A stretch of 64,000 nucleotides of DNA, from NCBI RefSeq assembly GCF_000423465.1, contig NZ_KE384022.1, positions 337,176-401,175 of the forward strand. The letters run 5' to 3'. The notes under the pieces are model-generated. The model was not told the origin of the DNA, searched no databases, and saw only the letters and a program-made list of their open reading frames with translations. The DNA is from Propionicicella superfundia DSM 22317. Its GTDB lineage: Bacteria; Actinomycetota; Actinomycetes; Propionibacteriales; Propionibacteriaceae. Position numbers and translations under genes: made by a program. Positions 3,467 through 51,017 of this stretch are shown one piece after another (position 1 is the first letter of the stretch; every line of letters starts with the position of its first letter).

Positions 3467-4753
3467 TCAGGCGCTCTTCTCGCGGCGTTCGGCGAGCTGA
3501 GCCTTGGTGAACAGTTGCGGCGCGCCGATCCCCCGGACGACGTCGGCGTCCACCAGCACCTGCGCGACGTCCTCGTTGCTGGGCACGTCGTACATCGCCA
3601 CCAGGAGGATGTCCTCCAGGATGGATCGCAGCCCCCGGGCACCGATGCCGCGCGCCAGCGCCACCTCGGCCAAAGCGGTGATCGCCTCGCCGGTGAACTC
3701 CAGATCGACGGCGTCCAGTTCGAACAGCTTGCGGTACTGCTTCACCAGCGCGTTGCGCGGTTCGACGAGGATGCGGCGTAGCGCCGAGACGTCCAGCGGG
3801 GCGACGGTGGCGATGATCGGCAACCGGCCGATGAACTCGGGGATCAGGCCGAACCGGTGCAGGTCTTCGGGACGCACCTCGGCGAACGGGTTGTCGCACG
3901 CCGGGCGCCTGGTCTCGAGATCGTTGTTGAAACCGAGCGGCCGCTTGCCGACCCGGGCGTTGATGATCTCCTCCAGCCCGGCGAACGCCCCGCCCACGAT
4001 GAACAGGATGTTCGTGGTGTCGATCTGAATGAAGTCCTGGTGCGGGTGTTTGCGCCCCCCCTGCGGAGGAACCGAGGCGGTCGTCCCCTCAAGGATCTTC
4101 AACAGCGCCTGCTGCACGCCCTCGCCGGACACGTCGCGCGTGATGGACGGGTTCTCGCTCTTGCGAGCCACCTTGTCGATCTCGTCGATGTAGATGATCC
4201 CGGTCTCGGCACGCTTGACGTCGAAGTCGGCGGCCTGGATCAGCTTGAGGAGGATGTTCTCGACGTCCTCGCCGACGTATCCGGCCTCCGTGAGCGCGGT
4301 GGCGTCGGCCATCGCGAAGGGGACGTTCAGCATGCGTGCCATCGTCTGCGCGAGATAGGTCTTGCCGCAGCCGGTCGGGCCGATGAGGAGGATGTTCGAC
4401 TTGCCCAGCTCGACGATGTCATCGTCGGAGGCGCGACGGGCAGGAGCACCGGACTGCGCCTGGATGCGCTTGTAGTGGTTGTACACGGCGACCGCCAGCG
4501 ACCGCTTGGCGGCGTCCTGGCCGATCACGTACGAGTCGAGGAAGGTGACGATCTCCTGCGGTTTCGGAAGCTCCTCCAGGGTTCCCACCTCGGGACCGTC
4601 GGAGAACTCCTCCTCGATGATCTCGTTGCAGAGATCGATGCACTCGTCGCAGATGTACACACCTGGACCCGCGATGAGCTTCTTGACCTGCTTCTGGCTC
4701 TTCCCGCAGAACGAACACTTCAGCAGGTCGCCCGACTCTCCGATGCGTGCCAC
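3467..4753 (-). CDS. clpX: ATP-dependent Clp protease ATP-binding subunit ClpX
   Basis: AAA+ unfoldase that feeds tagged or misfolded proteins to ClpP. The 428-aa length is normal. The N-terminal zinc-binding domain has C12-F-C15 (CSFCGK) and a second CDEC pair. The Walker A motif is GPTGCGKT, the Walker B region is IIYIDEIDK, and a C-terminal small domain follows. The start is GTG 4753 with GAGGAG just upstream; the frame stays open further upstream but has no ClpX-like sequence. It lies 74 bases downstream of clpP2 in the same direction, the usual actinobacterial clpP1-clpP2-clpX arrangement, although here tig is separated from the set by an opposing M23 gene. Confidence 0.97.
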
Positions 4754-49434: not shown

Positions 49435-49486
49435 GCGCGCGGGCGCGTCGGGGCCGGGCCGGTCCACGGACTCGACACCCGGCGCG

Positions 49487-49657
49487 TGACCGCCAGGTTG
49501 CACGGCATACCGGTCCCTTCGCCTGGCGGTCAGGGCAGTCACCGCCAGGTTGCGAGGCATACGAGCCTCGAATCCGAAGCCGGAACCCGCACAACCTGGC
49601 GGTCAGCGCACGCCGGCCCGGCAACCCGACGTCCTATGCCGCACAACCTGGCGGTCA
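49487..49657. repeat. Family B nested palindrome, left copy
   Basis: 171 bp with four units. Two point right (49487-49508 and about 49540-49560) and two point left (49587-49605 and 49636-49657). The unit reads TGACCGCCAGGTTG..GGCAT. The central loop contains CGAATCCGAAGCCGG. Spacers between the outer and inner units are about 30 bases each side. The left spacer carries a further half unit (CCTGGCGGTCA near 49522). The last unit, read on the minus strand, begins with the stop codon of the gene at 49655-50638. Confidence 0.85.
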
Positions 49658-50638
49658 GCCGGACGCGGACCGGGCCGTACCCGCCAAGGCGCGTTCGACG
49701 CGCTCCACCACGACGCCGGGCCGGGTCATGATCTCCACCGCCAGCCAGCGCACGACGAGGAAACCGGCATCGCGCAGCGCCTGCTCCCGCAGTTTCTCGC
49801 GCACGATGGCGTCGGGGTCGGAGGCGTATTTCACCGCGCCGTCGCACTCGCCGATCACCCCGTGCTCGGGCCACAGGAAGTCCGGGTAGAACCGGCCTTC
49901 CGCCGTCCGGACGGGAGCCTGGCATTCGGGACTCGGGAGACCGGCCAGGTGGAAGTGGCCCGCCGACAGGGACTCTGCCGCCGACTCCCTGCGCGGGTCG
50001 GCCAGCCCGATGCCCGGCAGCAGCCGCGTCACCCGGCGGAACTGCGCCATGTCCGTCAGGAGATCGCGCGCCGCCCCGGCCAGCACAGGCCTCGCGTAGT
50101 CGCTGCGCCGAGGCGTCGTCACGAAGGAGTCGCAGAGCAGGCGAGCGGCCGCATCGAGGATCACGAGCGCCTCCGGAACGGGCAGCCCCGCAGCGAGATC
50201 GACGGCCGTGCGGGCCGGTCCGGTCACCGCGTAGCCGTCCGGATCACGGGAGAGGTGGGACGCGGGAAGCTGCTCGACGTGATGCGTCGTGCCGTTCGAC
50301 CGGGCCCGTCGGCCACCACCAGCGGGTAGCGACACCGATGCGGGGAGGTCGTGCCAGGGGACGTTGCCGGGACACGGCAACCCCCACACGATGGCGGCGC
50401 TCTGGCGGCTGATCACCGCATCCGGGTCCACGGCCAGCTCCGCCCGTGCCCGGATCAGGTGTCGCTCGGCCGGATCGTCCGGCCAGGCCTCGGCGGCGAG
50501 GTACACCCCGCGACGCACCCGCACGAGGCGGCGGCGGCGCAATGCGGTGGTCAGCATCTCGCCGGTCACGCCGATCGCTCTCAGGGTCGACCGGCTCGCG
50601 GGCTGGGTCGGCAACGACCAGGGCTTCGCGGTGCGCAT
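49655..50638 (-). CDS. AbiEi-like plus DUF559 (Vsr-like nuclease) protein, flanked by family B repeats
   Basis: 327-aa protein. The N-terminal part resembles the winged-helix region of AbiEi-type antitoxins (LRAIGVTGEMLTTALRRRRL, then RGVYLAAEAWPDD). The C-terminal part is a PD-(D/E)XK-like DUF559 domain: Asp in FYPDFLWPEHGVIGECDGAV with the E-x-D pair, Lys in the KYASD segment, and ALRDAGFLVVRWLAVEI at the end. It may cut or bind DNA. ATG 50638 begins the conserved part; an ATG at 50656 is possible, and the frame runs upstream through the right-hand repeat without a plausible start. The stop codon is the first three bases of the left repeat. Confidence 0.75.
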   Translation of the reverse strand: MRTAKPWSLPTQPASRSTLRAIGVTGEMLTTALRRRRLVRVRRGVYLAAEAWPDDPAERHLIRARAELAVDPDAVISRQSAAIVWGLPCPGNVPWHDLPASVSLPAGGGRRARSNGTTHHVEQLPASHLSRDPDGYAVTGPARTAVDLAAGLPVPEALVILDAAARLLCDSFVTTPRRSDYARPVLAGAARDLLTDMAQFRRVTRLLPGIGLADPRRESAAESLSAGHFHLAGLPSPECQAPVRTAEGRFYPDFLWPEHGVIGECDGAVKYASDPDAIVREKLREQALRDAGFLVVRWLAVEIMTRPGVVVERVERALAGTARSASG

Positions 50639-50743
50639 GGCACCAACCTGCCGCATCTCCGGTCCGAGAGGAGCGGCACGGAGCCGCACCTGTGGACAAC
50701 TCCGGGCTCGAGGCTCCGTCCCTCGTGCCCACGACGCGGCCCA

Positions 50744-50914
50744 TGACCGCCAGGTTGTGCGGCATACCGGTGCGGTGGCCCGGCCCTCGTCGTTCCGACC
50801 GCCAGGTTGCGAGGCATACGAACCTCGAATCCGAAACCGGAACCCGCACAACCTGGCGGTCACCCCGGACATCGGCGCCACACCCGCGCGCCATGCCGCA
50901 CAACCTGGCGGTCA
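50744..50914. repeat. Family B nested palindrome, right copy
   Basis: 171 bp with the same plan as the left copy. Units sit at 50744-50765, 50797-50817, 50844-50862 and 50893-50914. The core ACCGCCAGGTTGTGCGGCAT is kept in the outer units; inner unit 2 reads GCGAGGCAT at its end. The centre (CGAATCCGAAACCGG) is nearly identical to the left copy, but the two 30-base spacers differ. It lies 106 bases upstream of the gene start. The remaining 50915-51017 shows no gene. Confidence 0.85.
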
Positions 50915-51017
50915 CCCCGCCGCCGGGCGGCGAACACCCCGGCGTGCACTCGACCCGGCCGCGACACGCGACGATCGGGCGGGCGACCGTCCCGGTGCCC
51001 CGGGACGGTCGCGTCGG

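Follow-up and report, generated by a model that had tools for sequence, protein, structure and literature searches.

The window, the 64,000-nucleotide stretch of the Propionicicella superfundia DSM 22317 genome that was analysed, contains a gene for a predicted winged-helix nuclease that is flanked on both sides by elements of four oriented repeat units. The gene belongs to a clade whose members are accompanied, in several genera of the Propionibacteriaceae, by a four-unit element of their own. This association recurs from gene to gene with a fixed architecture, the units are specific to the gene and vary together with its winged helix, the elements have spread within genomes, and they turn over between sister species. 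The arrangement probably represents a two-part system, in which a unit-binding winged-helix nuclease is paired with a four-unit element that behaves as a non-autonomous repeat mobilised in trans, in a manner resembling REPIN/RAYT.

The coordinates of the gene, of its two elements and of their units are given in Table 1. The two nested palindromes of 171 bp that the preliminary description had placed on either side of the gene are present, each composed of four units of which two read to the right and the following two to the left. Start-to-start distances are 52, 42–46 and 52 bp in both elements, confirming the equal spacing claimed for the two sides, and the terminal unit does open with the TGA of the gene, read on the minus strand. 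When up to three mismatches are allowed, the 20-bp core is found eight times in the window against 0.01 times expected from shuffled sequences. The two elements are not uniform duplicates of each other, as outside an inner segment of ~65 bp their spacers are 41–54% identical; the inner 65 bp have the appearance of having been converted. The neighbours of the nuclease gene are a dihydroorotase-type (pyrC-type amidohydrolase) gene and the dihydroxyacetone kinase genes Dak1/Dak2.

Table 1. Nuclease gene, flanking four-unit elements and individual units in the window (positions counted from the first nucleotide of the stretch).
Feature	Position	Strand	Remarks
AbiEi-like/Vsr-EDxHD-like nuclease gene (DUF559 / MTES_1575)	49655..50638	-	327 aa; ATG 50636-50638, TGA 49657-49655
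3' four-unit element of nuclease gene	49485..49659	-	core 49487-49657
Second four-unit element, ~105 bp upstream of the start codon of the nuclease gene	50742..50916	-	core 50744-50914
Outer unit ACCGCCAGGTTGCACGGCAT, 3' element	49489..49508	+	
Inner unit ACCGCCAGGTTGCGAGGCAT, 3' element	49541..49560	+	
Inner unit ACCGCCAGGTTGTGCGGGTT, 3' element	49584..49603	-	
Outer unit ACCGCCAGGTTGTGCGGCAT, 3' element	49636..49655	-	abutting stop codon
Outer unit ACCGCCAGGTTGTGCGGCAT, upstream element	50746..50765	+	
Inner unit ACCGCCAGGTTGCGAGGCAT, upstream element	50798..50817	+	
Inner unit ACCGCCAGGTTGTGCGGGTT, upstream element	50841..50860	-	
Outer unit ACCGCCAGGTTGTGCGGCAT, upstream element	50893..50912	-	
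Inner segment (unit 2 - centre - unit 3)	49541..49605	.	97% identity to 50798-50862

The Pfam match of the window protein is weak and falls just below the cut-off. The DUF559-type assignment is nevertheless carried by the clade, 59 of whose 63 members match DUF559/MTES_1575, and the predicted structure agrees with it. The AlphaFold2 model has a pLDDT of 96. Its residues 3–214 resemble the AbiEi antitoxin 6y8q (Z 11.5, rmsd 5.1, 180 residues) and 1zel (Z 8.5), and its nuclease domain resembles I-Bth0305I (3r3p; Z 13.5, rmsd 2.4, 97 residues), NGO0050 (3hrl; Z 13.3) and Vsr (1cw0; Z 10.8), all of these being matches among listed folds, so that unlisted families may match too. The AbiEi signal is also found by PADLOC AbiEi models (E 4.6e-12) and by Pfam AbiEi_4, which matches 50 of 63 clade members. 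Residues E222, D253, E264, D266 and K270 do not vary among the 63 proteins; invariant acidic residues are expected of a working metal-dependent nuclease, and such an activity is predicted for the clade. No Pfam match to a Y1/HUH transposase domain was obtained among the 63 members and the gene gave no phage match. Carriage on plasmids was considered and set aside, the three plasmid matches being weak and directed to other DUF559 proteins.

The units extend well beyond the window. Pattern and model searches of the genome (3.62 Mb, 23 contigs) recovered ~33 complete four-unit elements, which conform to one oriented consensus with fixed spacing and can be aligned end to end. The solitary elements are dispersed singly over many contigs. 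All 33 elements are intergenic, none lying inside a predicted gene, and they are concentrated between convergent genes, where 16 of 32 elements are located compared with 17 of 136 other gaps (p=1e-5). Conservation among the copies drops to background ~4 bp beyond the terminal units (ACC...GGT; GSTG...CAGC). Mean identity reaches 84–90% in the units, about 52% (49–53%) in the spacers and 32% in the outer flanks. The sharp ends, together with spacers that are more alike than the flanks, indicate that the copies descended from one element and were not assembled as separate binding sites. The units are kept while the spacers drift, an unusual pattern if the copies were dead mobile DNA and a hint that each of them still has a function. 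Terminal inverted repeats are present, and no target-site duplication rises above scatter in the 33 copies.

Partial copies accompany the complete ones at two places in the genome. On contig C7, a half element consisting of units 3 and 4 is near-identical to the right-hand half of a complete element 3.1 kb distant (L074, positions 985-1060 and 4108-4183), and it is possibly the product of recombination within an element. On contig C8, a lone unit with ~50 bp of downstream flank is repeated ~370 bp further on, beside a full element (L079, positions 3769-3840 and 3991-4210).

The pairing of gene and element recurs throughout the family. A covariance model of the element, run on 198 Propionibacteriaceae genomes, matched eight of them, this one and seven others, with differing unit sequences. 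Each of the eight is among the 29 genomes in which the gene clade is present at a threshold of E below 1e-50 (hypergeometric p about 8e-8, calculated by hand), the carriers including Propionicimonas, Micropruina and other Propionibacteriaceae. A detector blind to sequence, which looks for four similar units of 15–20 bp, two direct and two inverted, placed ~51-62-51 apart, was applied beside every clade gene (45–63% identical), with 150 within-gene windows as the null. An element scoring above every null window was found at the 3' end of 58 of 65 clade genes and at either end of 62 of 66, while 7 of 65 have one upstream. Scored alike, the five distant DUF559 genes used as controls gave none, and a second control set of distant DUF559 relatives, at 32–45% identity, had no adjoining element either; a link to DUF559 genes in general is thus ruled out. 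The geometry is nearly constant, with a unit pitch of 51 bp in 50 of 57 elements and of 52 bp in the remainder. The first unit begins a median of 3 bp past the last sense codon and usually abuts the stop codon. Unit identity is 77% within one element and 36% between elements. The preliminary description had proposed a REP/RAYT-like pair with a nuclease-type protein in place of the transposase, and had conceded that the link would fall if the units were confined to this locus or were equally common in genomes lacking the gene family. The ~33 copies in this genome and the restriction of the element to carriers of the clade leave that proposal standing.

The genome contains three DUF559 relatives, one of which adjoins the element type of the window. 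A paralogue 46% identical to the window protein (L032, contig C3:436084-437049) has a 3' element of its own with a different unit type.

The sequence of the unit varies from gene to gene, and the copies scattered over a genome match the type of a gene in that same genome. The unit types of three other genomes matched their own genome 13 (G173), 22 (G186) and 4 (G184) times, compared with 0–2, 0 and at most 1 matches, respectively, in 33 others. For the genome studied here, 41+37 exact matches contrast with 0–1 per strand in 56 relatives. Unit and protein divergence were compared in 53 gene-element pairs with a crude distance, Spearman correlation and 2000 permutations. The distance between units tracks the distance between winged helices (residues 1–50; r=0.46, reached in 0 of 2000 permutations), in contrast to that between nuclease domains (r=0.04). 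Among pairs that differ by more than 38% over the whole protein, the respective values are 0.44 and 0.00. Nearest neighbours by units and by proteins agree in 26 of 53 cases, where about one would agree by chance. Shared ancestry adds to the correlation, although it cannot explain a signal confined to one end of the protein. Residues 27, 30 and 33, within a helix that spans residues 26–34 in the model, are the most informative, together with residues 4, 12 and 16 of the N-terminal region. These sequence comparisons lend good support to the view that the N-terminal winged helix would be the part of the protein that recognises the units.

Turnover of the elements was followed between two sister species, G008 and G168, whose flanks are ~83–95% identical. 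Not a single solitary element occupies the same place in both. At four of four sites compared (L305, L302, L309 and L313), the other species lacks the full element between flanks that can be aligned. At one of them (L305, site A), a single unit-like remnant stands opposite the full element of the sister (L319, G168:C1:2756600-2757700), which suggests that part of the turnover is loss. No clean insertion junction was seen at the compared sites, where the intergenic sequence of the empty site has diverged and the exact insertion point is blurred. Near a solitary element site, ~8 kb of G168 (C1:2748539-2756699) have no counterpart at the corresponding position of G008.

Gene loci, by comparison, are often syntenic between species and fall into groups of 9, 6, 4, 4 and 3 besides smaller ones. 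At these loci all four units change together from one species to the next, and unit sequences change fast at orthologous positions. In two pairs of loci of G008 and G168 (L160/L180 and L155/L189), the gene is 69–75% identical within flanks that are 86–93% identical, apparently through very fast evolution or allele replacement. These comparisons indicate a fast-evolving gene that for the most part stays at its inherited locus, whereas elements lacking a gene are gained and lost. The alternative suggestion of the preliminary description, a mobile cassette bounded by two elements, is accordingly weakened: most relatives have the 3' element alone, many gene loci are syntenic and target-site duplications are missing. 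Its proposed comparison of empty with occupied sites revealed turnover of solitary elements and none of cassettes made of the gene and two elements.

A mechanism can be proposed that joins these observations. The AbiEi-type winged helix would bind the ~22-bp unit directly. The element presents its units as two inverted pairs, with units about five helical turns apart, and one such element is anchored 3' of the gene. Four proteins bound to these phased sites could then assemble there into a synaptic complex, and cutting by the Vsr/EDxHD-like domain would initiate the process by which elements are copied into other intergenic positions. Solitary elements would be non-autonomous, the gene serving them in trans as RAYT serves REPINs. 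We infer mobilisation by the protein, with its cutting and copying steps, from the fold, the invariant residues and the turnover.

Other explanations account for part of these data. The main rival, conceivable though rather unlikely, is that the elements form a network serving the host, in which the protein would be a regulator, an insulator, a terminator-like block or a chromosome organiser, old copies would be held under host selection and the nuclease would be incidental or regulatory. Such a network would fit the conserved units in copies whose spacers have drifted, the enrichment between convergent genes, the many gene loci that are syntenic between species and the fact that AbiEi proteins are known autoregulators (PMC7319586). 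It is opposed by element sites that are not common to sister species, by the position of the gene-linked element at the 3' end and not at the promoter in 58 of 65 genes, by the invariance of the predicted catalytic residues and by the fast change of units at orthologous loci. The nuclease might instead act as a homing-type gene drive that cuts unoccupied or differing alleles, repair then copying the gene-element pair and leaving solitary elements as by-products or remnants. This reading, which we consider improbable, draws on the nuclease domain being closest to the homing endonuclease I-Bth0305I, on the G008/G168 genes that are less alike than their flanks, as would result from allele replacement, and on the seemingly converted inner 65 bp of the window copies. 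However, the protein would then have to spare its own adjoining element, which bears its predicted recognition units, and ~30 precisely bounded gene-less copies per genome would be left unexplained.

A role in RNA has been largely refuted and is now very improbable. Under this explanation the palindromes would be transcribed hairpins, terminators or 3' UTR structures, of the gene and of other transcripts, in agreement with their good RNA folding (z -7 to -10), their place at the 3' end of genes and the convergent enrichment. However, the genome copies have a covariation term of nil (+0.23 kcal/mol), and a unit varies independently of the one opposite, with no compensating changes, which shows that what is conserved is a DNA site, not an RNA stem. 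Furthermore, inner units are often unpaired (CC against CC), no Rfam match was found, and the identity of the units tracks the winged helix of the protein. Chance juxtaposition of the gene with an unrelated MITE family, suggested by the single DUF559 relative out of three in the genome that adjoins this element type, is refuted by recurrence and retains next to no probability: 62 of 66 clade genes in several genera have an element of their own, the paralogue bears an element with different units, and units match the genome of their cognate gene and no other. The mobilisation of a non-autonomous element in trans by the winged-helix nuclease is the preferred reading.

The proposed system shares features with several known ones. 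In REPIN/RAYT, dispersed intergenic inverted repeats accompany a flanked gene, several distinctive types coexist and the gene is often vertically inherited (PMC3116915). Dispersed intergenic inverted-repeat elements, a gene flanked by them, coexisting types and a gene often inherited in place are likewise found here. In contrast, RAYT is an IS200-like Y1/HUH transposase whereas the enzyme described here has an AbiEi/Vsr-like fold, and the element abuts a stop codon, unlike that of REPIN/RAYT. A REPIN consists of two short GTAG/CGTC-tagged hairpins, whereas this element has four ~22-bp oriented double-stranded sites at a pitch of 51–52 bp and no tag in this genome. Without a Y1 transposase and a tagged hairpin doublet, the system is not a member of REPIN/RAYT. 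Inverted repeats of 23 bp are bound by AbiEi, which occupies two, and by M. tuberculosis Rv2827c, which occupies four (PMC7319586), in keeping with the proposed recognition step. The protein resembles these antitoxins in having a winged helix and a second domain of the same fold, and differs from them by its fused nuclease domain and by repeats that lie mostly 3' of the gene or scattered, an upstream element being present in 7 of 65 genes. No gene for an AbiEii-type nucleotidyltransferase toxin adjoins the gene in the window, and the pair there is thus not an AbiE type IV toxin-antitoxin system.

The fold of the nuclease domain is shared with the EDxHD homing endonuclease I-Bth0305I and with Vsr, which differ in their DNA-binding domain; the present gene, moreover, is not in an intron or phage and has a dispersed four-site element alongside. 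The Pfam match of the clade (59 of 63 members) places it with the DUF559/REase_MTES_1575 proteins of Actinobacteria, while the distant DUF559 proteins tested (32–45% identical) are without an adjoining element. Terminal inverted repeats are common to these elements and to DDE insertion sequences or MITEs, from which they differ by the missing target-site duplication. Integron gene cassettes form attC arrays next to an integron integrase, whereas these elements are dispersed one by one. A 2026 publication reportedly pairs a Vsr-like Caulobacter protein with DUF559. No earlier description of a nuclease with a four-site repeat system was found in the open-access literature, which is no proof of absence. 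If the proposed system is confirmed, its lifestyle would represent an independent form of one already known.

Whether these pairs make up a new class of mobile DNA, in which a winged-helix/Vsr-like nuclease mobilises an element in trans and dozens of mutually specific pairs have diversified together within one family, is in our judgement evenly balanced. If true, REPIN-like dispersed repeats would have arisen at least twice with unrelated enzymes, a Vsr-like nuclease would be able to drive the spread of repeats, and a function would be assigned to one clade of 'DUF559' proteins. The natural pairs of protein and site, 50-odd in number, provide a data set for decoding how the AbiEi-type winged helix reads DNA. 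Even without movement, it needs to be explained why, across genera, a nuclease gene retains at its stop codon a four-site element specific to itself.
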